Shown one piece after another: positions 21,431-49,431 of a DNA stretch of 64,000 bases; position 1 is the first letter of the stretch, and each line of letters begins with the position of its first letter. Made by a program: the position numbers and the translations under genes. The stretch covers positions 14,324,155 to 14,388,154 of the forward strand of contig NC_134033.1 in NCBI RefSeq assembly GCF_964204645.1. The letters are read 5' to 3'. The notes beneath the pieces are model-generated. The model was given only the letters and a program-made list of their open reading frames with translations, did not search any database and was not told the origin of the DNA. The DNA is from Tubulanus polymorphus. Lineage: Eukaryota; Nemertea; Palaeonemertea; Tubulaniformes; Tubulanidae.

Positions 21431-21437
21431 CGTATGA

Positions 21438-21850
21438 ACCAGAAATATCCGACGGAATCCACACCGACTTCTGATCATGCCACGCGTGCTTTAAAAAAAA
21501 AAAAATATTTTAATGATGTACCGAGGCGATTTAATGAGTGGAATATGATACGGATATGTAACCAATTCGTTGAGAAAAAAAAGTTCGAAGGTTCAAAAAT
21601 GATTATTTGTCGCTTATAAGATTATAGTGAATGTTAACACCAGAAATTTAGGACGGAATCCACACCGAATACTGAGATCATGCCACCTCGTAATGGTGCT
21701 TTTAATAAAAAAAATCAATTTTAATGATGTACCCAGGCGATTTAATGAGTGGAATATGATACGGATATGCAACCGATTTGTTCAGAAAAAAAGTTCGAAG
21801 TTTCAAAAATTATTGATTATTTCTCGCTTATGAGATTACATTGAATGTTA
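21438..21850. repeat. Internal tandem repeat upstream of GPCR copy B
   Basis: Two units of about 203 bp begin near 21438 and 21641 with 'ccagaaat' and 'gacggaatccacacc'. Both contain 'caggcgatttaatgagtgg' type sequence. Copy A has one unit only. The repeat covers the 5' flank of the receptor gene. Confidence 0.8.
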
Positions 21851-24813: not shown

Positions 24814-24908
24814 ATCTGCAAAAGACAATATGAAGCCTATCATATCGGGCGGTGCTAGTGTCTCCCCCTGGCTTCTACTGGTCGTATTAATTTGTATCGC
24901 GCAATATG
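24814..24908 (+). other. Signal-peptide exon of the Ig/FnIII gene
   Basis: A short leader, then MKPIISGGASVSPWLLLVV and LICIAQY with a strong hydrophobic core, then a gtaagt donor in phase 1. It joins in frame to 31863 as ...QYAASKNGED, a plausible cleavage region. The intron between them is 6.95 kb. Confidence 0.82.
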
Positions 24909-27246
24909 GTAAGTTGGGGTGAATCTCAATGAAGATAACAAAAACGCAGGTGTCTCCCTGAGGTCGAGTGTACCGTTGAATGTGCTTTGAATACGTTGAC
25001 ATCATTGGGAAGCCAATGAAAAACGAGATTTGAAGTAAATTGCCCGATTGATTTTAGAAATATACATGACCGGTTGTTTATAGAAAATTAGCGAGCCCTC
25101 CACATGGGACGGGTCGCCAGATTTCGGTGTATTGTTTTTCATTATGTTCTAAGCACCTGCCTGCCGGTGTTTATGAATATGCAAAAAATAACCGTTAGTC
25201 CAAAGTTCAAAAACGGGACAGTGACTTTTCATTCAGCTAGCCCATTCAAGGCTAGGCATTTTAACGGCTGAAATAGAATGAAAAAACGATTTATTTGAGT
25301 AACTCCGAAAGAGATCAAACACCGTCAGTGGCGATCTTTAGAAATATACACAAATCGTCTTAATTTGTTGAGTCCAGACTTATATACAAATACAATATCA
25401 AGGATCACCCTAGAGATCATCGTCACCTGACGATGATCTCTAGGGTGAGATCGAAACGTCGTATATTCTATATATTTTAGATTGAATAAATAAGTTCTTG
25501 TTTTTAAATTCTTTTAATCTGTAGATTGTGGGTTTTTATCTTATTATCCGTTCACCACGTTTGAGTGTGGTTATCGTTCTATTAAGGAAACGGCGAAATC
25601 TCTTGACCAATTTGCTTCGTTCGAATACTTTTCTTTTAATTTTCGTTGACACCTTTAAATCATATTTCTATAATTTGATTTAGGATCCACTGGGAAGTAT
25701 ATCATTTATAACGACGCTTGCTTTTGAATGGTATCATTTCGACGTGATTTGTGCAGTTATTGTCCCGCGCGCCTATTCACTCGGCGCTGCCAGTTTATAA
25801 ATAAATTTAAAAAAAAGATCTCGCGATTGTCACTTTTTTCAATTCATATCATATATACAAAATATGTGCCTGTACAAAATAACTACGGGGGGCTACGCAT
25901 GAATATTTCGGTGTCAAGTTTTCAACTATTGCACAGCGCCACACAACACTGAAGTGTCCTTCGTGAACGCCTAAAATAACCGCCCGATGTCAACTCGATA
26001 ATTAGCGTTTGTTTATTTGCTGCAATATCTGTTTAAATTCGGTTGAAGCGAATATTTCGCTAATTAATGCTTTAATAATCGACGTGACTTGAATATATAT
26101 ACCTATAGAACCTATACGAACTGAGGACCCAGTTTCATAGCAATAGCGGTGGTGGAAAACTATGAAACGGGTTTTCAATTGTTCGCCATTGACTTTTTAA
26201 CTCGAGGAATTGAATTGTTGCTTCCAGTTGCACCGAATCTCCAAAAGTGAAACGTAGTAATTGAGAGTTCGAGTCCCGAATTTCAAGCTCCCTGTTCTTG
26301 CACACCTGCCATTCACAATACGGTGCAAAATATATCTTGAGAAAGAGTGCTCGTTCATGAAACCCAACTTGTAATACGAAGCGGGAAATAGAACAATGAA
26401 TGAGGAGAATAATAAGCAATAGATTTATATGTTTAAACTCGTACGCATTATGTATCACTGACATACTAGTTGACTATTACTAAAAACAATTAGTCTAGTT
26501 CTTACCAATCTGTTGCGTTTATATAGTCAATTATTTAGCTCGGTGTTAAACTTGAAACTGCTGATACAGGTTCGGAATTATTCACATCTTGAAGTTACGT
26601 AGTTGTCTTCAGTCTGGATTTTGGATATACACAATCCTTAACCCACGTCAGCACCGGCATTAGGTTTGATGTGGATTCTGCCCCACTCATCGGGCGCCAC
26701 TTAGGACGTTCGAGGTTCCCCAAAACAACTGAATACCACTCAGGCAGTATCGGCAGGTCCTTGGTTTTTTCTCCAAGCGCCATGCAGGGTATAATATGTT
26801 CAACACGCTCAGGGTTCCATAACTATATGATTACAACTTAGGGCAGTATGATTAAGCAGACACAATAATGTTTCTTTTCCCACTTCCACTCGGATTCAAA
26901 TCCAAGACTTTCTGGTTTGACGGGGGACCTGTGACCGATTTGTTAAAACCACTCCATCCTCTTTGTTTCAAATGGTATTAATCTTATAAATACGGCGGCT
27001 GGTTGCACAGTCGTGTCTGCACAGGTCCAAAAGTGGTCTTAAATCTTAAGACTGGTCTTAAGTTGTTAGAACCAAAATGAGCTTACATTGGTCTTAAGTT
27101 GCTAGATTAGCTATTGGTCATGGACTACGTAACTGGCCCCTGGTTTGTAATGCTAGTGGCATCAAATTTTGATCATTTAAAAATCATGTAAAACGACGTA
27201 ACACCTGAGAACGTTTCTCAGTAATTATTTCTCCAACCTCCCTGTT

Positions 27247-27282
<36 letters not shown>

Positions 27283-30200
27283 GCACAATATAAAAAAAAA
27301 TATAAAATAAATATTCGTCACTCAATACGTTATAAAATATCAGACGTCGCGGACGCTGATCCTGAAATGTTGCTAAATTCCGATTACATGTTTAATAATA
27401 TACGAATGAAATTTAGCGCTTTAACTGTCGAATTCCAACGCGTGTATAGTAAGTATATCAGTGATTACTAGATAGAAACAGATGGTTTCATTTTGAAACA
27501 AAATCTCTCTATAAATTCATATACGTATGAGGCCTATCTATATACGCGCATATTGGGTGTATTTAAAACGATTATTTGAAATGTAAGATGACCCTTGCGG
27601 TGAACCTGGATAAACCGTGAGGTTCTATAATGCGCCCGATGCCACGGCGCGTCGTATTGGACGTCAAACACAAGCTCGGCGATGATGACCATTTTGTAGT
27701 CGAGCGTTAGGTCTGAAATAAACCTAAGGCTAATATGAAATGATTCCTTGTTTCTCTGGTGGGTCTTTTGTAAACTAACAGTGAAATGATATTGTAATCA
27801 TTTCATTTCTTTAGCTGCCGGGTCTGTTATTGTTAGCCTGATCGTGATTCTAAGAAAATGAATAATTATACAGGGACGGTATAATAGTTGGCCGGGTCAA
27901 CTTTTAAGCTGATCAGAAATGAGAAAAAAAGTATACGTAGTCTTGATATCTTAGGTGAAGTAAAACAGAGTTGTTGAATCTTTATATAGCATGATACTGT
28001 TTTTTTTTTAGATATAAAAACGACCATTACTTTAAAAAGGCCACAATTACAACTGATTTAACTAGATTTTTGTTTTGTTTTACTCGTTCGAGCCTACACG
28101 CGTTCGGTGCTCACTGGCATCATCGATCAACATGCCAGAAAACGTTGGATACTTGATTGGACAGCCAGACAGGTGCATACATTAGGAGTGAGGATTCTGT
28201 ATAGATGGAAAAAAATGCACAATTGCGCGTCGCATTTAGTTTGAATCTGGTCCATTTTACGCCAGTGAAATTGAACAATTTCGCTGTAATTACGAGCGTA
28301 ATTATAATGAAAGACAATCGTAGAATAGATTTCCGCACAATGCGATCACCTAAATATCAACGGTCGCGCTTTACAGCGAATCGACCTGTCACATAAAAAC
28401 TCAAGCGCTATAAACACAGCGTGCGTTTATCAATAAAACTTAAACAACCCGCCCCCAAAAATACGAGACAGAAAGCCACTAACACCGCGCGTAATGGGCA
28501 TAAATCAAAGGGTAATTTATGTTCCGAATCGTTTTCGAGTTAAACGTATCAAATGCCTTTTCAGCATCGCGAAAATGCCGACCCGAAAACCGAGCGTGAT
28601 TGCTACGTAATTGACACGAAAAAAACCTCAAGTCCAATTTTATCGTTTTTAACGTCGTATTGTACACGGTGAACTGACCTACAGAAAGTATTATACCATT
28701 GTATATTATGTAATTGATGCCTATATGCGTTTTGTCTATGTAATTATCGTCGATTTTCAACACTTTTTCGTGGCGCAGTATTATACATATATATATATAT
28801 ATATATTTCATTTTTTTTCTTTCTTAGACCCAATCATGAAGTCGATCCGTCTTGATGTTGAATTGAATTTTTCACGACGTAGATAATACGTTGTTGTTCA
28901 TTCGTATTCATTGTTCGGTCGTAATGAATATCAATTGACGTATTTCATCTGTATTAGGGGCTCCTAAAGAGAACATCGGCAGCTGTTGGCTTCGTATACG
29001 ATCGGAATAGTTTTATTTATACTGAATATAAGCATCTGAACGCGAGCCCTGGTATGACTAGTCATAACGAGCATATCAAAATCTGAAGTGCAGTATCGAA
29101 GCGCTATAAACTTGTCCCTATTGTCCTAATACGACACCTTTTTCTCAGGCGCCACTTCAAATATCTGCGCCTTGATTTTGAAGAGTTTTTCAGTAGGCCG
29201 ATTGTTTTTGGCCGCATTTTGTCGGTTTCGTAACGCAGATCCTGGCTACGTTCTGGCACCAAACACCCACGGAATAGTCGATCGAATATTCAAGTCATAC
29301 CATTTTCGTCGGGAATGTGTTATTAGTAATATGCCTATCTCTAACCCTATCGAGCTGAGGATTGCGTGAGTGGGAGGGGCTAATTATATCTATCGGTAAT
29401 TTGAGTTGCGATGTTTATTTTCAACCTTTGAGCGCCCCTTGATATTTTTGAGCCCACCTCAATGTTTGCAAATATACGAAGAGAGAGGCCCCAAATTGAA
29501 GATAAGTGACAACGCCGTCCCTGGAATGTATGCACGTGGAGTCTCGCAGTTCTCAACTACGTGCGCGCACACTAGGCTAAGCTAGGTAATTAGCAAATAT
29601 ATATCAGCAATTGAAAAAACGAAAACCAATAAATCCTCTGTTTCATTGACGATTGAGTGGCCTCTTCAAGATGAAAAAATCCGAGCCTCGGTCGAAACTT
29701 GACCCGGAATAACTTCTCTTAAATCGATCTGAAATCTAGAAATTCATCGATGATTTTTATTTTCTGATTCATTCAATTGTTATTTCGACGGAATTCAAGC
29801 CTTCGTTAGGTATGAATGCGAAGCCCACACACGCGTAATGTGTACCTACGCATTTTAGAACGAAACAGAACAAGAAAATCAATTTTAATAAATTATTTGA
29901 CACCTGCGAAAAAATGCGAGATTTGGCGTTTGGGTCGTCAAAAAATCGTTAACCCGTGTACTGAAAGTCGACAAAGAATAAAGGATTAGCGTACGAATTT
30001 TGTATACATTTTTCGGTGAGTCGAACGTAGTTTTGCAAGGTTTTAAATGCCCTCCAGACGCCCTCCAGAATTTAAACCTTTTGTTGGACAAGCTGTCTAC
30101 GACCAAATTCAGTAATTAGTAATTCTTATGGCACTACAAGTAACAATGGTGTCTTTACGCGTGTGACTGCTGGCAGGCCACAGAATGATACCTTCAACCG

Positions 30201-33200
30201 TGACAAAAATAAGAAGTCTATGAAAATATCATCAAAAGATGATAATCATGAAAATCCATATGGAAAAAATGTCACATCAGAATTTGTATTTAGTTCTAGT
30301 TAAGATAAGTGAAGAAATATGTTCGCACCAGAATCCGCAGTTTCACTAAGTGAACAGTAGATATTGGCCGAGATCTAGTCTAAATGAGATATCACACTGA
30401 AAAGGTTTGATCCTTTATTTCAGAACACTTCTTTTGTTTTGTAAATCCCACCTCTGAAATTTTAGACGATGTTATTCAAAACACCCGGTAATCTATCTCC
30501 CAACTGAAGTCATCCGGGGACAAAATAGTACATTTCAGTATATTTGTGAGTTGAAAAAGATCATTTGGTTTTTTTTATTCTTATTTAAGTCGTTCCCCTC
30601 AGTCTCGTAGAAAAGCCCTACATAGGCGTCCTAATGTAAACGTAACATATAGTATATGTTGTATGCCTGGTGTGTACGCTTCAAACCTGCAGAATATAAA
30701 CTCGAATGATATATAAATTTTTAACGCAACGAATTCTTTTCAGTATTTTTTTTTTCTTCTTCAAATCGCAATCGCTGGAATGCGCGTTCGTACGGCAGTT
30801 ATTAAATTCGCGATTATGCACAGCGCCCCACGGTATTATTATTTCAATCAATCGGCGGAACTTGAATTCGCGTTTTTTTTTTCTGGTAAAAATAGTAGTA
30901 TAAACGATTGTTCAATAGAAACCGGATTCGCGTTGTTTGCCACGACGAATACAAAGTTGTCGGATATAATGTGTTAAATATGCAAATAACGAGTCGGCGT
31001 TCAATTCATTAACCACGTATTCGTCGTGAACGACAGACAGACATTATTAAGCCCTATTGATAGACATATAAACTTCAATTGCTTACGTCTGGTCATTTTA
31101 AGTAAACAATCTACGTCGACGACACACGACGCGTGGCTAGTGGGCATGGTCGGGAAGCCACGATGACCTCATGAGGCAATTTGCATACGTCGTATTAATG
31201 TGCACAGCCTAGATATATTGGCATAGCGTATGCAAATTACCTGGATGAGGAAAACTTGTGTAGGACCAGGCACTGGCCATTTTTTTACCAGCAAAATAAC
31301 TTAATGTATCAATCAGCATCTCACGACATATGTTTGTAGATAACTTCGTAGATGCTCGAACTTTCATATGCCCGACTTCCGGTTTCACGAACAATTAATG
31401 ATATCCCTAAATCATTTAAGATTCAGCGAATTATGAAGAAATCAAAATCGATTACGGAGCCAATTTATTTTGTGAAGCTAATTCCTGATGAACCGTCGGC
31501 GTCCCTATCATTATCGTTCATTCTAATACCCGCCCAAAGCCAGCCGACCTCCAGACAATTTTGTTTTATATTCCCCAATATCTTATATTAGGATAATGGT
31601 AAACATTGTTTACTTAATAAAAGTCACAAAATTTTCGTAACCTCAATAAACATTTCTGCCGTTATATACGTTAAAGTCAATTGTTTTCAAAAGCACCGTC
31701 AGTGTAATTCAGACTGACACTGAAAATCCCGAAATATGTTCGACAAACATTTTTCAAGTGACAATGGCATTTAGTGATCTCCGATTGTCACTGTCACACG
31801 GGAACGAACCTACAGTACGTAGTAACAATGTGTTTATATATTTCAAGGCTATTCTCAGGCAGCTGCATCGAAGAACGGCGAAGACGCATCGACTGGGCCG
31901 AATGGTATCCATATTGAACTCAAACCAGGAAACCATGACACCGGTGCTGTCGATTATCGAAAGATTACGCCGAAAGAGGGCGCCGTACAAAATGCCAATA
32001 ATCTACAGTACGTGACCGTGAAGGTGACAGAATTAGTGACTCATCATTTCCACAATAAAACCCCGGATATCTTTTACACGGATGCGGCATCTTTGGAGGA
32101 TTTCCTGAGACGGACCGGGTTAAATCGGACAACGATGGCGCAACGTTTCCCATCGCAGAGCAACCGACAAAAACGACAAAATGTGCAGACCGGAGTGATA
32201 TGTAAGTGGATGATTTCATGCATGTTACTTAAGTAATCGGTTGGGATAAAAGATGCGACCGCAGTAGGTCTTTCTAACTGAGTTGGATAAGGGGTGATGC
32301 GATGATGTTGCATTCACTATAAGTGGTGAATGACAAGCAGCGGGTTCGAGTCCAGCTGGCTACTAACAGAAAATTCTTCAAAGTTTACGTCGTGAGGTTA
32401 AATGAACAATACTGTATAGGGACGGACTCGGGAAACCCAGATCCGAACGATGTACAGTAAGCAAACAAGAAAGCGATATCCATACGATAAGCTTAGTACG
32501 ACATAAGGGTAGCAAGGACGTAGATGTAAAGCAAAGGAATTCATTAGGGCATAGTGAAATAAACGATTTCAACCTTTCATCGGTAAATGCAATGATGATA
32601 TACGCGTGATACAACCACTACAGTACATACACTACCTCGAGTAAAGACTGATGCAAAAACTACAGTGTCTGCTCCTAATCTATGAGCATAAGTTAATTGC
32701 TACCGATTCCTATTTCAGCGAGTCCAAGGCTTCGTGTTTTGGCTGATCGTATTGAACGTATCGGCGACGATGTGGCATTATTCTGTAAAGCGGAAGGTAA
32801 CCCACCACCAACGCTGTCCTGGTTCCGTGAGGGAGATACAACGCCTTACGTCGCTGGTCTACAACCGGTAGGTTTTGTGCATCAGCAACATCAACAACCA
32901 GTTTACAGTTCTAGCATTATCTATGTTGCCCACTGTTCTGGCTTTTTTACGACTAGGTATATACCACCATATGGTTGGATAACCGAGGGAACCTATGGCA
33001 GACCCTCACTTGCCTCATGTAGAACCCTCAACCACCGGAGTAGCGTTGTTACAATACCCGCACTCTACCTACTTCAACTATCATCAAACTCGTCATTCGA
33101 CCGGATTTGACCCATCAGCATCATATATACGTATACTACTTTCCTGTTGAGAATAATGTTTCTATTTCACAGACGAATGACCGTATTGAAGTAAGACAAC

Positions 33201-36200
33201 CGACTACAGACGTTCTAACGCTGCACATCACTAACCTTATAGCTACCGATAGTGGTAACTACACGTGCGTCGGTACGAATATCGCTGGCCAAATGAAAAT
33301 GACCAGAGCTCTGCATATTTCATGTAAGTTGACAATAGCTCGACGATTACTGTCTATTCGAAATACCTTTCACAAGCTAAAATTTATTTTATAGATAGAC
33401 CCAAATTCACGTACATGGCCCAGCAAACGTTCTACATCAAAATGGCGGCCGGAGCCATAGGAATGATAAACTGTACGGCTACCGGGTTTCCAACACCCAC
33501 GTATAAATTCTACCGAGCTGGCGAGGCTCTCAACTACAACTCGACTTACAGCTTCAGAGCAGTCGACCAATCGGCTGTTCTTACGGTATGTTGCAACCCA
33601 TCGCGTCGTCATTCCATTATTTGATTCAGGGGCGGCGCAGGAAAACCCTTTTAGCCTAACCGTGGTTAATGGCTTATCCGTTGTTTGGCTGACCAGCTTA
33701 AAATAAGAAGCCACATACGAAGACAATGGTTAGATACCGGTATTTTCCTGCGCCCATTTATGCCTTACCACAGTTTACTAACAACGGTTAGTACTAACAC
33801 AGTTTACAAAATGTCACTACCGCGTATAGGTTCATCTTCGCTCCGCTGAGGATAAATGGATTCTTGGTGCGTACAGATGCCAGGCCGCCAACGCGCACGG
33901 GAGCGATTACATCGATTTACGACTCATCGTCGGAAGTAAGTCACACAACCCCCTAAACTACTCTTCTACCATCTCGAAATCCAAATATTCAAGCCGGAAA
34001 TAAATGTTATTTTGTGATTTTGATGATGACTCGTTCTCGTGAAGGTATTCCATCCGCCGCTGGTTCTGCGATGATAACAGCTGCCTCGGCTAGATGGGTG
34101 AAGATCGCAGTCGTTGGACCCACCACACAAAAACAAGGAGAAGTGGCCGGTTATACCGTGTTTTGGATGAAGAAAATCAAAGCGATCAAAGCTGGAATCG
34201 GTAGGTGACTTGTACATCATTCGACAAATTCTAACTTTAAATCAAGGGTTGATCATTGTCATTCGATCTCAGACGAATCAATGTCTTAAAAATGACGTAT
34301 TTAAGAGCACATGCCAGACTTACCTTCTCACTGACCTCGACATAAGTACGATCGACATTCGCATTACAAGCATCTTCTTATAAGAGATAATGAAATCTTA
34401 GAAATTAGAATTAAATCCTTTCTAATTTAGATATGAACATGGTCGCGCAAAACTCTAAATTGATAGCTAATCTACCAATAGACGGCAGCAAGACTTTCCC
34501 TGTCATAGGTAAGGGACGCAATTCAATTTCAAGAAAGGCTCTTTAACTGATTGAACGTTATCGTAAAACTTTTACTTTTTTCAGGCGTGAGAAAGGAAAA
34601 ACAAGACTCCCCGAGCGATGTGCCTGTCCCATATTGGGAATACGGTAAAGTCCGAAACATTAAAAAGCCTCTTGACATTTTTTTATTTGCTTCATTAGCA
34701 TTTTCTCTGTCATTTGTAGGCGGAACTTTCAAGGTCGACGATCTTGAACCGGAAACCGACTACTATATTCTAGTGAGCGCTACGAATCCTGTCGGCATAA
34801 GCAATCCCGTCTTCACGACGACTAAAACGGCAGCACGTACGTATCAAAATGCATCATGGTTCGGATTAATCTGAAAAACTTAACAACTGATCACGCACGT
34901 AAATCTAATCTTTTGTACCCCTCCCTAAAGACTTAATTCTGCATATCACATATCGGGTTGATCCAGGCAATCAAAATCATTATATCCTAGCCAACCCCAG
35001 ACATGTTTTTAATGTCAAACATATTTCAAAATGATATTCAGATCAGATATGCATTTAAGAAAGGGTACGGATATGCAAAAGCTCCCACTCAACTACAATT
35101 AGTGATCACGATCACAAAAACGGTGATAATCTTCGAAAAATAAGCTTTCGATCTCACGAACAACATTTTCGTGGAGCGTACGTATGAAACTATCACAATG
35201 CTGTTCGGAAGTTGTTCGTCAGAATGAACTGGAAGCTCTTCTTGTTGGACGCTTTCAATATTAAGATGTATTAATTATCATTTTAATTGATTTCTCATGC
35301 TACAGATGGAGCTGGTGTAATAGTCACTGGAGCTGGAGGTACACGATAATTTATAGTGTGCTTTTAACATACATATCATTAACTGCTTTAGCATTATTAT
35401 CTATATCATTTAGAATATTCAGTTTATTAGTTGCGGACAATATTAATCAATTTCATCGCGACTTCATATGCATTATCATTCTATATAGCCGCAGCGATAG
35501 CTTCTTTGACAAAGCAAAATGAACTAAGCGAAACATGCATTCCCTTTCAAATTTACGAATCAGTGTCAGCGTTACTGCAGCAAAACGCAGCACTTCGTTT
35601 CTCTAAAAATGTCTGATGTTACCGCAGTGTCTAGTGTGCCGGATGGCTGGGTACACTGGATTCGACGAGAGTTGTAGAGGACTGTAGATACAGCCACTTC
35701 CAGAGACGGATGAACACTTCGTGTGTTTAGATCACCATTGCTTTTCGTGTTTGTACGTTCGCTTGCATACATCTTTTTGCGATTGCATCTTAACAGCGCA
35801 TCTTATGCGGCCCGCTTTAAAAGTGCTAAATATATGCGACTTGCGATTTACCATATGCGATATTATTTAACACATCATGATGTATGCTATACGAATCAGG
35901 AAGAATTAATTTGCTATCATAACCGCTATATTTTTTATTTTCGTTTACGGTCTTTTAACAGTGAAGTTCTCATTTTCGGTATTTGAAGGAATGAAGAAAA
36001 CCCTGCTGAGAAATTTTAGTTGCTTATTTTTGTAGATGACGGGGATGTTCTAGTAGGCGGTGCTACTAGTAACGTGGGTGGTCATGGCTCTGTTAGTGGC
36101 GGTGCCGCAGTGTACTCAGGCTCTGGGGGAAACTGGGCCCCAGGTTCAGGAGCAGCAGGTTTTTCGTTTATCTTGCCACAATCACATTACTATTGTTTGT

Positions 36201-39200
36201 CTTGGTTGCGTAATGCTAGAAGTAGATTACAGTCGTCCCAGCTTTCCAGGGTTTGATTGAGTTTTACCGGAGCTTACACCAACACATTCCGTTATCGTTT
36301 TGGTGTGAACTTTGTGGCGGAGGCAATCAAACCTGGCGTAGTTGGTTAACCAAGACCTCTTACTGAACTAACTCATGTTTGGATTTCTAGCTCATATAAT
36401 TTCCAACGTTAGGTATGAAGTTCCTGACTTCAGGTTTCGGTGATTGGTGGTGTCTTATTTTCAATTTCCTTTTTTTAAATCCCAAATAACAAAATGTAAC
36501 GGCTGCAATTAGTGCCTGGGTGCTGTTTTTTTGCTGTTTGGTTTTGCGCTATGCTACAGCTGAGCTGCGATTTGATCGCTTTTTCAAACGTCAAAAAAGA
36601 GCTGGCGATTCACATATAAAGAAATCAGTACATGTAGTTATCATTCTGCCGCCAACTGGTTCCTCGTTCGTTGATACATTCTCATCGATCTTGCGATCGT
36701 CCGGTCTCCGCGTGTGTCTAGACCTATACACCGATTGTTTGAAGGGGTACCCGTTCCATGTGGCAGACTCGTATCTGCATTCGTACGGGCGTGGTGATGA
36801 TAAGCGAACATATTCCCGTAACTACTGAAACTGTTTATTTACTATTTCTTGTATTACAGTTGGAGGTGGTGTTGGAGCTGGTGGAGACGGGGCTGGTGCT
36901 GGAGGAGCCGGGGCCGGTGGAGTTGGACTGGTAACCGCCGGATCTGGAGGAGTAGGCGCGTGGTTCTGGTTTTGGGTTTTCTTCATTATTCTGCTGATAT
37001 TCCTCATTTTTGTCGGTATTATCTTGTGTTTGTGGTGTTGCGGTTTCCTAGGAGCTGCCCCGTTGATTTGCAGTCCATGCTGTCTAGCTATGTGTCCTTG
37101 TTGCGTCGATTTATGCGATGCCATGTGCCCTTGTTGCCCGTTGTCAGCTTGTTGTGTATGCTGCGGACGAACGGCGAGTGGAGCCCAGTATTCTGAGGTA
37201 GCTGGGAAGTAAGTATCTCGCTATGAATCAATGAACAAGCAAGACCGAATTTCTCATAATATCTATCTCTCTTTCTAAATCAGGAAACGTGGCGTGTGCA
37301 TCTGCTGTCCGACGGCGGATATGGTGGCGGCCTCGTCCGAAAAAGAAAAGGCCAAACTACTTAACTTACAATCTAATGTATCGAAATCCAAAAAGAACAA
37401 ATCAGGTGAGTAACGACTAGTTGCTATAACGAGCATTTTGGTTGAAATACACGAGTAAGGTTGGTGAGAGTAAATGGTGGACAATAGATATGCTAGTAAT
37501 GTAATTTCAATATTTTAACACACCAAAAAACTTAAAACCAACCGACTACATGGATTTGGGCCTGTAGACACATACACGACGGTGTCCGTCAAAACCACGA
37601 CCCAGTTCCACAGTTGGGGGTTAACGGCAGTTAGCTGTCAAAGTTAACTGCAAAATATTTTGCTCCAGAGTCAAAATCTTTCTAAAAAACTGCAGAACTG
37701 GCTTCGTAGTCTCCATTTTTACAAATCAAACCTAATGATACTGAGTACCATTCGTAGGTTTGACGCGACGACGTTCGAATGCCTTGCTAGCCGCACGTAA
37801 GTGCAGATATTCTATCAAGACTATCTAGACGTTTCCGCCTAGATCTATCGCTCCTTATGTCCTCAGTGGTGCCCTGGCTATCCTTTCAAATTGCCTTCCA
37901 GTACTATGTTTGTGTTTGTTCTTCTATCGTAAGGTTTCATCCTAAAAGACCACAGACAGTTAGAACAAAACAACAGCGGGATACGCGAACACTACGGCTA
38001 CGCTCAGGAAGACGGTATCGCTAGAGCCGAGAGCGTGGCCGTACAAGGTACCACTAACGCCCGCTACTCGCACAAACCAGCGCGCGGAGAATTCATATCC
38101 GACGACGAGGTGGCGCTGTTGAACACCCGAATGGACAACGCCACCTACAGGAAGACGGTAGACAGACAACACAGCGGGGAACGGCGTCATAAGAACATCA
38201 TCGAGAACCACACGACCAGAACGGACGTCCATCACCAGGACACGGTGCTTAGAGATGTCGTACATAAAGACGTCGTACACCACCATCACCACGGGCCTCA
38301 GGTTATCGATCGTCATAGGTATATATCTATTCAGTAAAGTTTGAATGCACTCCTTTGTTTTACCTCAACCCTACACATCTCGCTAAATGAACCAGTCATT
38401 TCTACCTGGGGAGATGTGATACTAGAGCTGCTGCTAAGCACTTGGCAGTCATCTATCATGGAGAGAGCTAGTATCTTGGCTGAAGACGCCACGGTTATGT
38501 AAGGGATTTGAACCCACGACTTTACATCCCAGAGTCGAACGTCCTAACCATTCGCCCACGCCACTCTTCGCCTTCCTATCATTATACTCTAGACATAATG
38601 CATCTAAGTTACATCCACGCGAAAATTAAGCCGCGTTCCTATATTTCACAGGTCACAACGTGAAGAAATCTTCATCGAACACGACGATGCCCCGGTAAAA
38701 CAGGAACACGATTACCGAACCGTCGAGAAACACTACTACGTCGACCACGGCGCTCCGGCTGAAACGGCCAGTGAGGATGTGATCGGTATCGTTCGCAAAG
38801 GACGTTCAATGGACCTTCTAGATGCTGGGGTACGTTACTTTTTACGATTATAGATTACCTTCGAAACGGAACCTAGTTCCGCAAAAAGGAATTAACTCTT
38901 CAACTGTTCATGGCTTCTGTTCATGGAGTTAATTCTTTTCGTGAAACAAATCCTGACAATCAAACATTATATCTAAACAATTAACATCAGGCGTCGGCTT
39001 TGAAATTAGTTTGAATACGGTGAATATTTCGAGATATTCTTCAACCTAAAAGATGCGATCACTGCGATCCATTCAGTTCCATATCGCGCTCGTACGGACG
39101 GTTAAGATTTGCATCTAGAGCTCTGAATCGTTTATGATATTTGATGGAACTGGCCGGATAGCGACCATCTTTATCGCGGCTATCTTAACGAACATTATAA

Positions 39201-42200
39201 ACGCTTAGGACGTTTTGATAACGTTTTCGATTTTTCCGGGGTTGTGATTTGTTGCAGGAAGGTCAGGTTCACCGTGGAACAATGGTGTTCACTGATTCCC
39301 CGATTGTGGACAGAAAGCGTCGATCTAGCGTTGAGATCATAACAGAATACAAAGCCGGGGAATCTCACGTAAGACATTATCGAAAAATTAAAAAAAAAGT
39401 TAGAAAGGGTCGATATTCCAAGCTGCAGTCTCTGTCTTACGAACTCAAATGCTATGGAATTCACGTATTTATATTATTTTACGTCCAGCCTCATTCTATA
39501 TCTTAAGATAAACATTCTACGCTCAGTTGCACGATCGTGTGCTGGAACGAATTTGATTTACCGTACCTAACGTAGTTAAACATATACAAACCAAAAATGG
39601 AATCGGTCTTGAACAACGTTATGAACCTTTTAGCTACATAAACTTTTCATGAATAGATCTTGGATAAATAGGACATAAATAGAAAATAGAAAATTAATAG
39701 AAAATTAAGTTCCTGTTATACAAAAACATATTTTTGGGCCAGCTTGGATAATAGACCCCGCATGTTCGCTTCATCACAACGTATATAATACGCTGCTTTA
39801 TTCACACTAATTACGTCATCAACGCTACCGCGCACACACAGACGCATTCACATTTCCAAAGCTTCATTTGACAGGTTTTTTCTTTATAGATTAAAATGCT
39901 CTACCTGTCCGTGGCCCGCCATATGTTTTTCTAGTTAACCTGTCGTCAATGAGAAGTAGTGTAATAAAAATCATCGTCACGTTCATCACCACTTCATCGC
40001 TTCGTCCAAACGAGCATGCTTCATCACATTTTGTGTCGGCGCATTTTGTTTACAACGTTCGAACCCTTTTCTGATTGTTTAGGCTGACAAACGCGATGCT
40101 AAAATACAGATTTACGCCCTGGACACGGATACCTCTGATTCGGGAGAATTCGGAACCCCGACAGTCGTTCGCGAGGTTCGTACGGTTCGCCGCCATCGAG
40201 GACATCGACGCAGGTAAAGACGCTTCACATGTCGTGTTGAATGTATACATGTATTGCGTATTACTATGATATGATATTCTATTATAGTGAAGTAGATTTT
40301 TACATGTACTTTAATCTGACACGTTTATCTTTAAAAAAAAAGTTCCCTCAATATAACTCTTAATGTTACATGTACTTGATGATTGTACCGGGGGAATATG
40401 CAAATGATGCAGTAAAACAAGCCGCGGCCAGAAAACCACCCCTTTCAGACATGCATAGTTTAGAGGATCCTTTCTGGAATTCAGGCATTTATTGTAAATT
40501 CATTAGTTCACATTCAATCGAAAATGCACGCCAATCAGAAATTTGAAGGAGTGTCCGAGGGGATGGTGCATGCTGCAGATTGATACCTGCATTGAATTCA
40601 CCATAGTGGTGGGATTAAATCTGGAACCTTTAGTGTCTAATAGTTTCATGACTATCCGTTTATTTAGTTTTATTTAAACCTAGTGATATATATCCTTTCT
40701 TTCCTGTTACAGCGCCTCTGCTGAGGACCTACTGTAAATATTTACGACAGTTTAACATTTATATCATTTTTATCTATAACCTGCACTTATTTAATAAGCT
40801 ATTGTACTCCTCTTTCGTTAATGAACTCTCAACTGAATACACTGATTTGATGTTATTCATATGCAAGCACATATTGACCTGATTGGCTGATAGATATCAC
40901 TGACGCCATCACTCTTGCGCGCTCCTAAAAGTGGCAAATCTGGTTGTATTCGGTACACGTTCTGCGAAAGGAGGGTAAACCAAGTTGACACAATACGCTT
41001 TAGACCCGTCATCGGCTTGGCATACTCAAAGTTTAGAGAAAGTTTCAACGCTGAATTCGTCTTTTTTCTGACAACCAGAAAATTCGTCGTATTTATTTTC
41101 CAGCTTAAGCGTCTAAAATGTATAAGACAACATATAAAATGCTTCGATCATCACAGTTTAGCCTTTCACAGTAATCATTGTCACATCAATAAACATATTC
41201 TCTTGTAGCACTGACTCTACTACTTCCTCCAATACATTATCATATATTCTGTATATACCTCTGCTTTTTCAATAATGAAAAACATCTAAGATAGGTAAAC
41301 TCGTCCACTATTTTAGAGATCAAGGCTTATAATATTAAGGGGTTTAAACAAAGTGGTAATGCTATATTCAGACTATATAAATGCAGAATTTGCTAATATA
41401 TATACATAGGGGTAAAATCATGTCGTTGTAATATTTTTCGTACACGTCTTGAATTTGATTCAATTCCAACCTTTCTTTTCATTTAGAAGCGCGTCAATCC
41501 CGAGAAACGCTAAACTACGCGCTGTCTACGATATGGGAGATCCTACCGCTACTGACGGTATAATAGAATACGCTACCGTTCACAAGAAACACGTCAGAAG
41601 AAGCCCATCTCCGGATATACTGTTTGTTGTAAGTAATACCGACTTCATTCAATCATCACTGCAGAAGAAGTATAGATTACCATGCGGACTCATTCACCCA
41701 AGGAGCTTAAGCTCATCATCACCAATAAGATCAGTTAACCCATAATCACTCTTCTGTTTTCACAAGAAGATCTTACTCTTCTTAAACCAATTCAATTTCT
41801 CAAATCGATTTATGATGTTATCCCTTCTGTGAAACACGAGCCGTGAACACGACTCCTCTTCAAACCCTTTCATCATCAATAGATAATTGATCTGATCGAT
41901 CGTATTTTTAGGAGGAAGGTGAACCGGCAGTGAGGACCAGCCGTCAGCGATCAGCCTCGCCCAGTGAAGGACAGAAAGTCGAAACTGTAGTGGTAAAACG
42001 ATCGGGAAAACGTTCGAAGAGTCGCGAGATTCTGGATGATTCGGTGTTCGCCCCGGTTCATCAGATCGACGCGAACGCTACGGCAACTCGAGTCGTACAT
42101 CGTTCCTCGTCGCGACCTCGTACACCGACCACCAGCTACCCCTCCTCGCATTATAAAGCCTACGAAATCGACATCGACCAGGAGCCTGCGAGATACGTCA

Positions 42201-45200
42201 TCGACGATCGTAAAGCGAGGACACTTAGTTTGGGTACGTGATGTAATCCATCATTTCTTACCAGGGCAAATTTTGTTATCGTAGTTAATCAACTATCTGT
42301 GAACTAAGTGAAACCGAATGTCAGCTAGTCAGAACAATAATCTGGAAAATAGCGTACTTTACGGTTGAGCACAGTCGCTAGTTCCAAAATACCTGATCTG
42401 AAATGCGTTAGATCAATTATAAGCTCTGAGCACTAAGCCGTGGACTAACTACGAAAACAGAAGTTCGCCATTCTCCCATACCCTAGCCTTAGTATGCCAG
42501 ATACACCGTTCTGTAGACACAGGCTAAGTACATAATGGTCAACCATGGAAAGGTTTCGTACCATGACCGATGTTAACGATGCCACCACGTTTGAATCTAT
42601 GACGAGGGAGGATAATCCTTGTATCCAGCACAAAACTTGGTCTGCATGGAAAGGTCTTGTATTTGTTTCGATTGCTTAAGTTAATTAAGTTACATGGAGC
42701 TATATATTTTGTATCGTCGGCCAATCCTTTCATTTCAATTGCCAAATCAGGTTGTCACGTTGCTCGTTCCTTTTTCGTAGGACGTGGTTTGGACCCGCCA
42801 GCGGCCGAGAAAACCTACCGCACGACATTAAGAACACAACTGAGCAATGCGGACAAGTCGCCGACTCGTAAATACGTGTCGTCCGAACAGCTTCACATCA
42901 GCCGAAATCTGGAACCGATCGAGATCACCGACGATCCGAATACAGATCGCGTTGTACACGAGATCTGGCATGACAAAAAACCGCGTCACCATCGCAGCCA
43001 AACGAGACTGATCGAGACAACGACGACCGAAAGAGGGCGCAGCAGAACCCCGAGTAGCCAGCGAGAGGAAATAACCTACGTCACTAGTCCACGTGTCAAG
43101 GTAACTAAAAGGCTTTCCAAATAAATGAAAGATAAGATCCCCAAAACCAAAGAAAAATGAGTCCGAAAAGTTTCTTAACCAGCAGTTCAATTGATGGTTC
43201 AGCGATTGATATCGCAATATTCTTCAGTATTACTTAAGATGGCTAATAGGATATAGTCGACATGTCGAATAGAATTTTAGATGACACATGTTTTGAAACC
43301 TGGAACTATTTATTGTGGAATATGTTCTTATGTAATACTTACAACACGGGCACAGTGTTTATGATCGAGGTTATTTTCCAAAAAATTCCAAAACTACTTT
43401 TAAAACCATTCTAATGGAATAGAAGAGGGTATTCATGAGTGTTTTTACTAAATTCTAGGAAATTCGCCGAGAAGAGAAGCCAGTATATCTGGTGGCCGAT
43501 TCGAGACAAAGCGAGGTTGTGGTCGATGCACCGATGTACGTTGTGTCCGATACGTCAACCAGACAGGAGATCGCACGACCATCGACTCCAACCACAACCA
43601 ATCGACCGCTTTATGTCGTAGAATCTAGACAGGTACGTTCCGAAGAAACGTGATATCATGCTGTCCGTCAGAACCTTTTAGTCTATGCTTCATGAAAACT
43701 TACCGAGCCACATAAGAACTAGAATTAGTTATTTCTCAGTCGCTCAAAATAGGATTACCCAACCATTTTAGCCTTCTGGACAATTAGCGGTAAAAAGTTG
43801 GGTGTTAAGAAGCTAAAGCAACGTAAACTAACTTTCTTACCTGCCAGCTTACTGTAAAGGACGATGCAAAAAAATCTTGTAACGAATATGTAAGTAGCCT
43901 CAGCGAGGATCGAACTCGGATCTCTTACGCCGAATGCAAGCGAGCTAACCATTAGACCAATAGTATTAGTATACATGTGCAGTGTGGTTGTACTGCTTAG
44001 GTCATAGTAATTCATGGAATCATGCCTAGCTACCTTTTCTAACCGCATGATGTTATTATCAACGTCATCGCTTTGAAATCTCTATGGCTATGTTTATCGC
44101 TCGTAACAGGACGAACGATCAAGAACAGCGACACCGACAGTCGTACGAGAGAGGGAGGTTCGAAGCCATACGATCGAACCGGCTCCGAAGATGGTAGAAC
44201 GACGTACGACGACTACGAGCACGTCGACAGATCGTCGTTCAGTTGAGGTGGACCATCGAGATCAACAGATGAGGGTACATCGACGTTTTCACTTAAGATA
44301 AATTGACGAGTTGTTCAACTTTAGTCACGCTTTTTTTCTGCGTCGACGTCGAAGAAGAAATGCGTGGCGTAATGTCTCTAGTTACTTACTAAAAACTGAT
44401 GGATAGACCAGAGAGGTGCACGCCTCTTTGGCACCTCCCTGTAGAGACACAGATTATTTTCTTCGTTTGGTTACCTCAATTAAATTTTCAAGGAATTGCG
44501 TATGATTTATATCTTAATTCGTTCAAAGCTTTCAAATTGTTTCTCCTTTCTATTCAAGCTTACTATCAGTATACCGGCAATTCGTGTAAAAAGTCTTTTA
44601 TCTCTTGTCGGGTCATTTTTCCACGATCGACTATCGGTTAAGGTTGGCCTTTTATTGCGCATCATACGCTTCCTCGGGATAAGTTTAAATACCTGCAGCA
44701 CGTTGTTGTTTTAGTCGCATGCCAGGGACCACCGCTATCGGTCTAATCAGTCTGGAAGCGTTCCAATTTTGTACGTGTCGTCTGTTGATGGTGACGACGT
44801 CAGAGATTATGACGACGACGATGACGATATACCGTCTAGCAGCGCCGCCGATGTACGTACAACACAAAATACGTAGATTAGTGATATGCTTAGTGCCGAT
44901 GATTACCCGCGGACCAGCGATATATGAAAGGCTGGTTTCCAACACGTTTTCCAACTGATGCCCGCTACTACTGCATCGCGTATCACAGTTATTTACGCCA
45001 TCAGCTTCAAGCGCCAAACGTATCTTCCAAAGCTACCTTATGCTATCCCAGCATTAGACCCGATATGCTTTTCGGTGTAGGCCTTTGCGGGTGAATATAC
45101 TATACTGTTAATGGGTTTACCACATCAAAACCACGAGCTCGAGTTTACAGGATGCTGACAAATTATGTATCAGGATTAGAATGATGTTGCTTCTATGCCT

Positions 45201-48200
45201 ATTATAGTTGTGGGATGCTTGCTGCTCTTTTTCTCAGCTTCAGCATAAGCTAAAATCTTGAATTAAACTGTACAAAAGCCGTAAATGCCATGGAAAACGA
45301 ATGCCGCATTCAGGGAAGTCGTTAAGGAAGCATAAGTTGCCTATAATGTGTTTGTTAAAATGGCACTTCTTAGTTGTTTTGTTGTAATTTGTCACGCAGT
45401 TGTGAATGATTGTCGCTATGCTTATTTGCTTTATTTTTCATAGTGGCCTTCTGAGAAGCAATTAGTGAAGCCCGTCCCAGTGTACCCCGGGGTAGGTTTA
45501 GCAGGCTCCTTCATAAAACGTCTCTATAACTTTCTAAAATCAAAATATAACATTATCACACCATTTCAATCCCTCGTGATTAGGTCAACGTATATTTTGA
45601 TAAAGCGAACGCAAGATGACAAAATACGTTACGTATATCGAGCTTTTAAGGCTCCACACATTTACAGGCCTTCACATACACATGTCATTCCACGATACCC
45701 CGAAATTCCCCAGGTCAGTGACCCGACGCACCACCATTACTGCTTAGCTGCTCACAAGCTTGTCGTAGCTACCTTTAAACTACTATCTCTAACAAATAGA
45801 AAAATAACTCAGAAATCGGTTTCCAAGTTATAAAACACGGTATAACTGTGAAACCGGTTACTGAATCTTAGTTAACACAAACAAACGTAACGTAATGTAG
45901 TAATGATTTTCCAATCGACCATCCTGAAACTATCAAAAAATACTTCAATTAATTTCTCATACATGTTTGGATTGAGATGTAATTTTACCATTTGTGCTCT
46001 CCTCAAATCGAACTCAACTATCGGTGAAATAACAAATGAAGTGATTTTCCTAATTGATTCAATTAACATCGCGTGTGATTGTTATTTTCTATTGTGTAGT
46101 CTACTTCTCGACATGTACAAGATAACCAACTGAAACTGCCCAAAGATAACCGCACGTCGTTGTACGTCTCAAGTGAGAGTCTGGATAAACTAACCCGTCA
46201 ATCGCCCATACCAAAAATTATAGTGCGTACCACATTCTCATACTTATTAGGGGCCATATTTCAAGTTATTTGGTAACGTTGGTTTGGACGCTTACTGTCA
46301 AAGAGAACTGTTAATATGATTCCATTCCATAATATTTTCTCTGATCACTAATACCAATAACTTTTGATGTGGCCTCAAAGACTACTTGATAGTTTCTAAT
46401 TTCTAATTGCGTAATTGATAACTTAGTTTAACGGTAATACCATCATCAAACTTATCTAGTTTTCTACTTCGCATGTCTATATACATGTATGTGTACAATG
46501 TTCAGAATATTTGATGTCATATTCTTAACCAAATTATTTAGACTCCACAAGACAACAGAACGCAGCGCTATTATTCAGAAGATTCACAACATAGCTCTAT
46601 GCCCGACCAACGTCAATCGACGGCTTACGTCGAGTCTCGCGAAGAGCGTCGATACGTTCAGGCGCCACCGTCGGGAGCTGCTACCGAGCAAAGGGTTGGG
46701 GAAATGTTCAACAGAGCTAGACAAGAGGAGCAACGACGTAAACCTGAAGATTATCAAACTGACGCAACGCAGACCTACGTAAGTAGCCTATAGTGATATC
46801 AGAAAGCATGTATTGAATGTAGCATGGTATCTAGATTTTCCAAACTAACAAGTAAATGAACGTGTAGATGCTTGCATGCAGCAATACCAAAAATTGGAGC
46901 TAATAAAAGCGACAGAGATGACGTTTTTTAAATTTAACATGGTAGCATTGCATCGAAAGCACTCCATTTATGATCAGACGCGTGTACCATCTCGGTAGTC
47001 ACCCTATCGACGTGCACCAACTCCATTCACAATGCTGCTTCAAATTAACTATCCATAGCATGTGTTTATAGTATCTGTCTCTCTACGTATTTAGCGGAAT
47101 ACTAAACGTGCTCCTATAGCCGACATTGAGGACGAATACGCCGATGAAGATTTCTTAGGTTATAATGAAAAGGTAAGATTATCATCGGCGGCGAGAAGAA
47201 ATCCCTTCTAACCTGATATCTTACACGATACTATTGCCAGAAATGTAGGATAGATCTATGAGTACATTGTCTCTGAAAATCTTTTTAATCTGAAATGAAC
47301 ATTCATAAAACTTCTCCTAAACTAGGTAAACAGCTAAAAAATAATGACGACAATTATTTACCACGCGTTTGCCTCATTAGTAAGATAACACGGTTTTTCT
47401 CACTACTAATAGTGCTTACGTTCTGTTAATTTGTTTTCTTCCTATTCTTTCTAACACGATTAACAATAATTTACTTTTTCTATTCTATCGTATATAGCCA
47501 CCTGCCACATACTTACGAAAACGTAAAAAAACTGTTAAGGTATACATGCATGCAAATAAATGTGGCCACATTAATGATAATGCAACAGAATAAATGTGGA
47601 TTTACTATTAAAAACTAATTTGTAGAACGCGTTATATGTAGGTGTAATCTTTTCGTTCTCAGATGTACGAACCACTTACTAACGGAAATTCTCCCCATTC
47701 CCAAGGACGAGTAAATGATCCGCCATCTTCTAAGCAAAAATCCCAGTATAATTCCGAATACCAAAGGGTAGGTTATTGTAACGATTGGATTATCAATTAA
47801 CGATTAGGTTAGATGTCAAACACTATAAAGGTTATCCACAAGAATATCAGGTACAATCGATAGTCCGGAGATCTAGTTTCCATCATCAATCATCATCCTG
47901 TTTTGGCCGTCCTACAAACAATATTTCATTCTCAGGTCTTCAAATATTGATTCGAAGATTATCAAACTTATGTTAAATGTTTGCTTAGTTGAAATGCCCT
48001 ACAGAAGTGCATCTATTCCTAGAATCCCCAGGAACATACTTATTGCTAAAATCAATTCATGAAATTCAATTGGCGTCTTGGCTATTCTAATCTTAGAGGC
48101 CTGTTGTATCGATAAAATAGACCTGCCAAAATTAAATACTTCCTTGTGCAGTCGACCCTAAAATAGGAATTGATACCTAACTCAATGCTGGGCTAGCAAT

Positions 48201-49431
48201 TGCAATAACCATATACTATTTGTGCATGCACTCTTGCCTGCTTAGTCAATCATTGTCTTGCACTTTCTTGTCTTGTTCTCGTATAGCATGACTGTTTTCT
48301 CGAATATTTTCTACAGCTACCATCGCCTATCAGTACAACTACAGTACAATCTACCACCGCCTCGGCATCCACCGCGAATGTCACTAAAACAGCAAGTAAA
48401 CAATCATTAAAGGTGTCTCGTGACAATAGACGATCTTTGCACATATCATCTGATTCACTAGACAAAGAACAGGAGGAGATGACTAAAAAAGTATGTAGCG
48501 GGCAAACCTTTCTGCCTAAGAAAGACGGTGTCGTCTCAAATTACGTATACGCTAAAAGAAATATAGAAATGAAATAGACTCCATTTTTTTTTTTTTTGTG
48601 TTGTTGTAAGTTGAATTGCTTTCTGCAGGTTGAACAAAGATTAGTTGCAACTGATCCGGAAACCTTCGACATGTATGAAGAGGAGCAGCATGAGGAATGG
48701 CAGGTATGCTATCGCAAAGCTCCTTTACCTTATACGTGACTATTTCGATCTGGTGAAAAACTATTCAAGTTTTAGACTGAATCCCGTTACACTGCGCTAT
48801 TCTCAATCCTGAATCTATTTCATAGGTTTAGTTTTCATCAGTTATGCACACAGCAGCTCTGCATGGGTTTGCTTTATTTCAGATACAAAACACTGAAATT
48901 CAGCCGGTAACTTACACGAAGACATATAGTTACGAAACGACAGAAGGGAATGCCCAGTCTAATCAGATGATGTCAGGTGGTACGAACCAAATGATAACTG
49001 GTGGTCAGATGCAGGGTGGTGGTGGCCAGATGATGTCAGGCGGTGGAGGGACCGTCCAAATGATACCAGGCGGCGGAGGTGGCGGCCAGATGATGTCAGA
49101 CGGTGGAGGCTCGACGTCATATAGCTATGAATCTTCCAACCAGCAGTATGGTGATGCGAATATGAAAGGTGTCGTTGGAGGACAGGCGCTGATGCAAGGT
49201 GGTGGAGGCTCTGGTGGAATGGAGATGCAGAGCGGTGGCACGATGATGCAAAGCGGTGGAGGAGGAGGCAGTATGCAAGGAGGAGGTATGGCCATGCAGC
49301 AAGGAGGTGGTCGAATGCAGAGTGGTAGTTCAAGGCAATATTCTAGTAGTTCACAGTATTCATCTGGAGGAGGTGGAGGCCAAGGACAATCTTCTGTCGC
49401 TTCCGGCGGAGCATGGTCCCGGCGATATTAA
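24830..49431 (+). CDS. Large Ig/FnIII transmembrane protein with long repetitive cytoplasmic tail
   Basis: 33 coding exons all keep frame, 1824 aa. Exons: 24830-24908, 31863-32201, 32719-32867, 33173-33323, 33395-33585, 33830-33935, 34045-34200, 34431-34508, 34585-34644, 34720-34836, 35306-35338, 36036-36158, 36860-37208, 37284-37405, 37934-38318, 38652-38829, 39258-39368, 40083-40213, 41487-41628, 41912-42233, 42781-43100, 43459-43632, 44110-44274, 45444-45491, 45651-45713, 46100-46222, 46542-46778, 47095-47172, 47498-47539, 47663-47767, 48317-48490, 48629-48703, 48883-49431. Order: signal peptide (1-26), region ending RQKR (128-131), Ig1 (140-239), Ig2 (240-338), FnIII-like (339-475), Gly-rich stalk (476-561), TM (562-588), 20-Cys juxtamembrane block, then a tail of about 1200 residues. 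Its architecture suggests an adhesion or signalling receptor. I recognise the domains but no named family for the whole. The weakest splice sites are the acceptor of exon 15, the donor of exon 12 and the acceptor of exon 25. Confidence 0.82.
25406..25580. mobile_element. Foldback element with perfect 20-bp central hairpin
   Basis: CACCCTAGAGATCATCGTCA and its exact reverse complement flank a 2-nt loop at 25406-25447, followed by the right arm of the 14088-14357 family. The right terminus is complete, ending with 'ccgttcaccacgtttgagtgtgg'. This copy defines the outer end missing from the 14357 side. Confidence 0.8.
26997..27140. mobile_element. MITE-like TIR element, copy B
   Basis: Starts ggctggttgcacagtcgtg and ends gactacgtaactggcccc, inverted to each other. 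Internal 'ggtcttaaatcttaagactg' is shared with copy A at 2-141. Confidence 0.75.
27249..27279. repeat. (AT)n microsatellite
   Basis: About 15 AT units, directly downstream of TIR element copy B, within the first intron of the Ig/FnIII gene. Confidence 0.9.
27725..27900. repeat. Interspersed repeat, pair member 2
   Basis: Diverged relative of 9590-9752, in the same orientation. See that entry for shared blocks. Confidence 0.5.
32252..32367 (+). repeat. tRNA-like sequence (possible SINE head)
   Basis: A B-box match (gggttcgagtcc) follows an A-box-like 'taactgagttggataagggg'. A clean cloverleaf is not formed. It lies in intron 2 of the Ig/FnIII gene. Confidence 0.35.
32719..33323 (+). other. 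First Ig domain (two exons)
   Basis: 32719-32867 and 33173-33323 encode residues 140-239. FCKAEGNPPPTLSWF gives the B-strand Cys and core Trp. DSGNYTCVG gives the F-strand Cys with the usual D-x-G-x-Y-x-C pattern. The intron inside the domain is phase 0, and both borders are phase 1. Confidence 0.88.
33395..33935 (+). other. Second Ig domain (two exons)
   Basis: 33395-33585 and 33830-33935. INCTATGFPTPTYKFYRAG supplies the first Cys, with Phe/Tyr in place of the core Trp. LGAYRCQAANAHGSD supplies the second. N-glycosylation sites are visible (NCT, NST). It has the same exon architecture as Ig1, pointing to duplication of one Ig unit. Confidence 0.85.
33629..33755. mobile_element. Small TIR element in intron 5 of the Ig/FnIII gene
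   Basis: The left end (ggcgcaggaaaa) and the right end (ttttcctgcgcc) are inverted copies about 100 bp apart. Non-coding, MITE-like. Confidence 0.55.
36860..37405 (+). other. Gly-rich stalk, TM helix and Cys-rich juxtamembrane block
   Basis: Exon 13 encodes a Gly/Ala-rich run, then AWFWFWVFFIILLIFLIFV as the start of a 27-residue TM segment. After it come 17 Cys in about 50 residues, including two MCPCC repeats. Exon 14 adds KRGVCICCPT and a basic, Lys/Ser-rich stretch. The Cys cluster directly inside the membrane could be multiply palmitoylated or bind metal. That is inference. Confidence 0.85.
38488..38572 (-). repeat. tRNA-like sequence (SINE-like)
   Basis: The minus strand reads gtggcgtgggcgaatggttag (A box) and gggttcaaatccc (B box), with a long spacer like tRNA-Ser/Leu types. 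The T stem is imperfect, so a tRNA-derived repeat is likelier than a working tRNA. It lies in intron 15 of the Ig/FnIII gene. Confidence 0.5.
40713..40737 (+). other. Alternative last coding exon of the Ig/FnIII gene
   Basis: A good acceptor (tttcctgttacag) is followed in the correct phase by SASAEDLL and a TAA. Joined to exon 18 (ends 40213) it closes a 960-aa protein. The exon used by the long form at 41487 begins with the same codons in sense (SAS...). AATAAA stands downstream at 41188-41193, before the next exon. Confidence 0.65.
41188..41193 (+). terminator. Candidate poly(A) signal of the short isoform
   Basis: AATAAA lies about 450 bp after the early stop and about 290 bp before the next constitutive exon, in a stretch with no competing splice evidence. 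Confidence 0.5.
43893..43965 (-). repeat. tRNA-like sequence (SINE-like)
   Basis: The minus strand carries tggtctaatggttagctcg (A-box like) and gagttcgatcct (B box) about 40 nt apart. A full cloverleaf with paired acceptor was not found. It lies in intron 22 of the Ig/FnIII gene. Confidence 0.45.
48883..49431 (+). other. Gly/Met/Gln-rich C-terminal exon
   Basis: 182 residues plus stop. After TYTKTYSYETTEG come repeated QMMSGG, QMITGG and QMIPGG units in a Gly background, then a Ser/Tyr/Gln/Gly segment ending GGAWSRRY. The composition resembles intermediate filament tail or prion-like low-complexity domains. The repeat is imperfect at DNA level and therefore not a simple microsatellite. Confidence 0.85.

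Follow-up and report, generated by a model that had tools for sequence, protein, structure and literature searches.

The 64,000-nucleotide window analysed here, the whole stretch of Tubulanus polymorphus contig NC_134033.1 from position 14,324,155 to 14,388,154 of the forward strand, very likely contains one real gene at window positions 24830-49431 (+), and its product is probably a type I surface receptor that crosses the membrane once and belongs with the invertebrate IGDB proteins, which carry immunoglobulin (Ig) and fibronectin type III (FnIII) domains. The coding sequence comprises 34 exons (5607 nt, 1868 amino acids) joined in a single frame, the sole stop codon of which is terminal; it specifies a signal peptide, two Ig domains, one divergent FnIII domain, a glycine-rich stalk, one transmembrane segment, a juxtamembrane string of cysteines and a very long cytoplasmic tail. 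The receptor most likely belongs to a little-studied invertebrate family that has already been named, and a new kind of protein is unlikely. The parts of the gene and of its product are as follows.

24830..24908 (+): exon 1, start codon and signal peptide, residues 1-26; hydrophobic 19-residue windows begin at residues 3-11 and 15
31848..32201 (+): exon 2, N-terminal module, residues 27-144, without a known domain
32165..32176 (+): furin-like site RQKR, residues 133-136, at the boundary of the N-terminal module and Ig domain 1, from a motif scan
32719..33323 (+): exons 3-4, Ig domain 1, residues 145-244, Cys167/Cys226; top Pfam I-set stretch at residues 158-242
33395..33935 (+): exons 5-6, Ig domain 2, residues 245-343, Cys271/Cys325; second I-set stretch
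34045..34836 (+): exons 7-10, divergent FnIII domain, residues 344-480, from an FnIII profile built from the same genome
35306..36957 (+): exons 11, 12 and the beginning of 13, glycine-rich stalk, residues 481-565, 35 of 85 residues glycine
36958..37026 (+): transmembrane segment, residues 566-588, hydropathy peak 3.56
37027..37308 (+): juxtamembrane cysteine string, residues 589-657, exons 13-14, holding 20 of the protein's 25 cysteines
37309..48703 (+): exons 14-33, remainder of the cytoplasmic tail, residues 658-1686, low hydropathy, no cysteine
48883..49431 (+): exon 34, C-terminus rich in glycine, serine, glutamine and methionine, residues 1687-1868, and stop codon

The gene model was produced by a dynamic programme that combined splice-site and codon scores and was offered GT and AG sites only, so that GT-AG at every intron is built in. 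A low exon penalty yielded 69-72 exons, many of them tiny and taken as spurious, and raised penalties yielded 39, 33 and 28; the final version was chosen by hand among the runs, and the end of the transmembrane exon, 37208, was placed manually. The start codon lies at 24830; upstream of it the frame is closed by a stop at 24731, no further ATG intervening, and the terminal stop codon, which ends at 49431, is followed by AATAAA/ATTAAA polyadenylation-like signals at 49496 and 49509. A prior annotation of the same DNA, hereafter the sequence-only reading, had likewise placed one gene here, and its ends and layout agree with ours; the order of parts was the same, whereas the 33 exons and 1824 residues it had counted became 34 and 1868.

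That these exons form one gene is supported both by codon use, with neighbouring genes as the training set, and by the phases of individually called exons. The 1021 training codons came solely from other genes of the window, namely a G protein-coupled receptor (GPCR), kringle exons and EF-hand exons taken by eye, and the coding test relied upon was the version without stop codons; across the 21 tail exons, the claimed frame scored 0.080 per codon and the other two frames 0.047 and 0.017. Tail exons of at least 35 codons (16 of the 21) had a mean of 0.067 per codon, versus -0.103 +/- 0.086 in 98 intronic stop-free runs of the same minimum length (Mann-Whitney p = 1e-8, for runs which overlap across frames and are not fully independent), and the highest intronic run was surpassed by only 7 of the 16. 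When exons were called one by one, with neighbours ignored, 29 of 39 calls overlapped the model, 26 of them in the same frame. Phases were compatible in 15 of the 17 exactly called adjacent pairs, versus approximately 6 (one third) expected; the two misfits arose from exons 6 and 18, which had been called in a different frame.

It is improbable that the model fuses two genes, a receptor ending soon after the transmembrane segment and a separate downstream gene for a disordered protein, or that it skips or adds exons. Such an error would be in keeping with a model predicted from DNA alone, with the 10 individual exon calls that fell outside it, and with several weak splice sites (donors of exon 12, 1.4, and exon 19, 1.7; acceptors of exon 6, 1.8, and exon 25, 1.7). 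Frame choice from codon use alone was also weak; the claimed frame ranked top of three in just 9 of 21 tail exons and 9 of 13 other exons, and the 17 of 21 and 11 of 13 obtained in an earlier, stronger-looking version came from a test that counted stop codons. Against a fusion, however, the exons on either side of the transmembrane segment keep phase, the donor of exon 14 is strong (8.8), and 15 of 17 individually called neighbours are compatible in phase.

Two introns were inspected for coding matter. The three plus-strand frames of intron 1 (6.9 kb) gave no Pfam match at E <= 0.1, and therefore no additional known domain seems to have been overlooked there. Between exons 12 and 13, an open frame at 36490-36828 (+) encodes 112 residues with a hydrophobic stretch; it matched only itself in the genome and nothing in Pfam or PDB, and could be an alternative exon or a chance occurrence. 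Its reading as a transmembrane segment plus SEFIR domain was rejected, given a score of 0.7 bits to a three-domain SEFIR profile from the same genome, a level also attained by 44 shuffles (773 reported out of 1000). Elsewhere in the genome, three SEFIR domains, of the interleukin-17 receptor type, lie at C3:8936900, C3:24486711 and C3:24503420; two of these are alike and approximately 17 kb apart.

The outside part of the protein was as expected of the single-pass Ig/FnIII adhesion-type receptor that the sequence-only reading had proposed. Pfam placed I-set in two stretches (E = 8e-23), and a phmmer search of PDB with the two Ig domains returned Robo, Dscam and titin among 165 distinct sequences at E <= 0.001 (60 shown), the matches including Robo2 (E = 3e-36), Dscam (3e-30) and Contactin-2 (3e-16). 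The FnIII domain was recognized with a profile of 20 domains picked from 150 listed in the same genome; residues 344-480 scored 24.0 bits, versus 5.9 for the best shuffle (1000 made, 847 reported), and no Ig, N-terminal or tail piece exceeded 4.0 bits. This score is gathered in two collinear pieces, of 2.0 and 20.1 bits, which flank an insert of approximately 38 additional residues between strands C and E. In PDB, the same region gave weak matches to chains of Contactin-1 and Tie2 (E 0.006-0.02). The order is thus two Ig domains and then one FnIII domain, and nothing more was found in the 539 mature outside residues. Apart from the signal peptide, hydrophobic 19-residue windows occurred only around residues 566-588, continuing into the cysteine string.

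Robo2, Dscam, Robo1 and titin head the list when the Ig part is matched to PDB, which raises the prospect that the protein is a well-studied neuronal Ig cell adhesion molecule, such as Robo, Dscam, Contactin or NCAM, after domain loss, which we consider very unlikely. The similarity to Robo, Dscam and Contactin resides in similar I-set Ig domains, and matches spread over many families are what is expected of a generic I-set; moreover, Robo, Dscam, Contactin and NCAM have more Ig and FnIII domains, in multi-Ig, multi-FnIII ectodomains, and different cytoplasmic parts, whereas here there are two Ig domains and one FnIII.

The N-terminal module (residues 27-144) had no Pfam relative, and a genome search at E <= 0.1 returned only the module itself. 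AlphaFold without an alignment gave exon 2 a mean predicted local distance difference test score of 36, which was uninformative and was set aside. The furin-like RQKR at the end of the module could be a chance occurrence, because the same pattern recurs once, as RKRR at residue 896, in the cytoplasmic tail.

The placement of the receptor with IGDB was made from layout and literature. We take the IGDB layout to be Ig-Ig-FnIII, in exactly that order, in a single-pass protein; we further take accession O18016 and its protein name to denote IGDB-1, C25G4.10 to be igdb-2, and Drosophila CG17839 to be the fly counterpart of IGDB, its likeness to the present protein being that of a protostome surface protein of the Ig superfamily. 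The nemertean protein has this layout, with Ig-Ig and then FnIII outside, a signal peptide and one transmembrane segment, and it resembles IGDB-1 and IGDB-2 of C. elegans as a surface protein with Ig-like and FnIII domains, in a comparison by layout and literature only. In the literature, IGDB-2 is described as an Ig/FnIII protein that acts against DAF-6 when glial compartments form, has a role in sensory compartment morphogenesis and binds the ion channel LGC-34 (PMC8221789). Brugia Bm2376a (1477 aa) is likewise described as an ortholog of igdb-1/igdb-2, with Ig-like and FnIII domains, N-glycosylation and a membrane term (PMC10187950), and a Trichinella entry bears a name ending in 'protein C25G4.10' (PMC9612144). 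A scallop transcript is named 'Ig-like and fibronectin type-III domain-containing protein 1', O18016 (PMC5333834), and a locust transcript is annotated with the same protein name (PMC8285658). CG17839 is presented as an Ig superfamily protein that binds Side-VII (PMC5578738); among the passages naming it, none gives orthology to IGDB, and the further passages obtained on IGDB-2 held nothing bearing on orthology. Together, the shared layout and the names already borne by the scallop and locust transcripts weaken the suggestion that the receptor is undescribed.

On the cytoplasmic side, the protein has 1,280 residues, in which two features stand out. The first, additional to the outline given by the sequence-only reading, is the cysteine string: 20 cysteines occur in 69 residues (589-657), versus a maximum of 7 for such a window in shuffles (n=1000), and beyond residue 657 there are none. 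A dense hydrophobic cysteine cluster is shared with cysteine-string protein (CSP/DNAJC5), in a comparison of how the two might work that carries no claim of homology; the CSP cluster is palmitoylated and CSP is a J-domain vesicle protein, whereas Pfam lists no J domain in the present protein. The second feature is the Gly/Ser/Gln/Met-rich end, formed by the last 182 residues, in which the DNA holds a tandem 30-nt repeat at 49024-49109. The charge-hydropathy line places residues 649-1686 among disordered sequences (-0.097) and the Gly-rich C-terminus just across from them (0.011), and the tail is predicted from this to be disordered. As had been stated, the large tail shows no enzyme domain, in that Pfam gave no enzyme or signalling domain above its cut-offs; Prim-Pol (0.025) and ArsA (0.16) fell under them and were taken as chance. 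Residues 649-1686 had no match in PDB at E <= 1.

The description of the tail as repetitive held for the Gly-rich C-terminus but was not supported for residues 649-1686, where comparison of pairs of 12-residue windows gave 11 diagonals versus 6.6 +/- 2.4 in 40 local shuffles (maximum 12). The best pair, DNRTSLYVSSES (1438) and DNRRSLHISSDS (1639), scored 43 versus a shuffle maximum of 44. A Gibbs search for a motif recurring from exon to exon of the tail, at widths of 8, 10 and 12, remained inside the range of 12 shuffles each.

The tail also bears on whether the receptor is instead specific to its lineage, with generic Ig and FnIII domains assembled in lophotrochozoans and joined to a newly evolved scaffold tail, and not orthologous to IGDB; we regard this view, which comes near that of the sequence-only reading, as possible, though on the whole doubtful. 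In searches of the genome from which the stalk and the Gly-rich C-terminus were left out, the N-terminal module, the transmembrane region and residues 649-1686 matched only themselves at the thresholds used, a missing match being no proof of absence, and the Ig-FnIII part returned at E <= 1e-8, beyond itself, a single generic Ig stretch that was 29% identical. These results, along with a tail lacking Pfam and PDB relatives, would suit a lineage-specific origin. Missing relatives of the tail say little, however, because long disordered tails evolve fast, and the layout is like that of a family whose name is borne by mollusc and insect transcripts. When viral contigs were scanned once with the Ig part, there was no pattern match; a single scan with residues 533-877 in prokaryote genomes produced 15 pattern matches, none of them confirmed as a relative.

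A stronger form of novelty would be a lophotrochozoan receptor in which an acyl-anchored cysteine-string base is fused to a disordered, possibly condensate-forming tail of >1,200 residues, such that a scaffold is nucleated at the cell surface by an architecture without counterpart in other phyla; we think this unlikely. The plainer designation of the protein as a scaffold, made by the sequence-only reading, is a reasonable inference.

Several points count against an IGDB receptor acting through its tail. One source equates igdb-1 with T04A11.3 and pairs it with FNDC5, not with an Ig receptor family (PMC10751425). The Ig-Ig-FnIII layout, which together with the literature suggests the assignment, may be convergent or belong broadly to the Ig superfamily. 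The FnIII region lay below Pfam cut-offs, with fn3 not listed and DSCAM C-terminal Fn3, at E = 0.065, well short of its own. Relatives of the cysteine string and of the tail were found neither in the genome itself, where the tail was searched as far as residue 1686, nor in PDB, nor in the prokaryote scan. Tests for tail motifs were weak or null: among 14 patterns, several of which were written after viewing the tail, such that the values are nominal and were given no weight, enrichment was seen for [RK]x0-3Sx1-3L (18 versus 6.9, overlapping matches), Y[VI] (10 versus 4.9), S.[DES][LI] (7 versus 2.3) and, marginally, R..[ST] (27 versus 20.0, p = 0.044). The ten other patterns were not enriched at 0.05, including RxxS, SP/TP, PxxP, PPxY, NPxY, Yxx(hydrophobic), the immunoreceptor tyrosine-based inhibitory motif and acidic dileucine, and the C-terminal [ST]x[VIL] pattern was absent. 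Finally, the tissue role, ligand binding and acylation of the receptor are themselves predictions.

With these points in mind, we still favour a receptor of the IGDB kind, which might operate in the following manner. The Ig-Ig-FnIII unit would bind a partner on its own or an adjoining membrane, with the flexible Gly-rich stalk providing reach, and a proprotein convertase may remove the N-terminal module. S-acylation of the 20 clustered cysteines is probable and would pin the base of the tail to the inner face of a specialised membrane domain. Beyond them, ~1,200 tail residues, predicted to be disordered, could serve as a phosphorylatable platform on which trafficking, cytoskeletal and kinase partners dock, and the end rich in Gly, Gln and Met may self-associate. 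On the model of C. elegans IGDB-2, such a receptor might shape apical or sensory-ensheathing membranes of glial or epithelial cells. In this picture, the anatomy is read from the sequence and each functional step is an inference.

Other genes of the window surround the receptor gene. Two rhodopsin-type GPCR genes lie in tandem at 17781-18818 and 20462-21490 (-); they are near-identical by eye (7tm_1 E = 2.5e-13 and 9.5e-13) and probably stem from a recent duplication. At 7069-8318 and 15646-16116 (+), there are two similar EF-hand-like exon sets resembling tandem myosin light chain genes; the frame 15649-16113 gave EF-hand_6 at E = 2e-5, slightly under the cut-off. Downstream, a multi-kringle gene occupies 54237-60961 (+), with Kringle in all three frames scanned (54846-55166, 56193-56603 and 60602-60958) and more kringle-like frames visible by eye.

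Two further loci were encountered elsewhere in the genome. Approximately 110 of the 150 listed FnIII matches (counted by eye) fall within ~70 kb at C1:8389034-8459879, most likely a giant muscle gene akin to that for titin or twitchin. A Hox-like cluster of nine homeodomain matches in one orientation spans ~286 kb at C6:5348978-5634756. In one of four Hox homeodomain exons that were read, the homeodomain is followed by AKLNGP, which is near the Lox5 peptide KLTGP known from lophotrochozoans and so agrees with a lophotrochozoan source. A search of the assembly for mitochondrial COX1 gave no match.

The IGDB receptor is known mainly from nematode glia. If the gene described here is a lophotrochozoan IGDB, the receptor family would be traced in another animal branch, a single copy having been found here, and tests of how the family shapes membranes could take hold of the cysteine string and the long tail; if it is not, the protein would represent a lineage-specific receptor scaffold.

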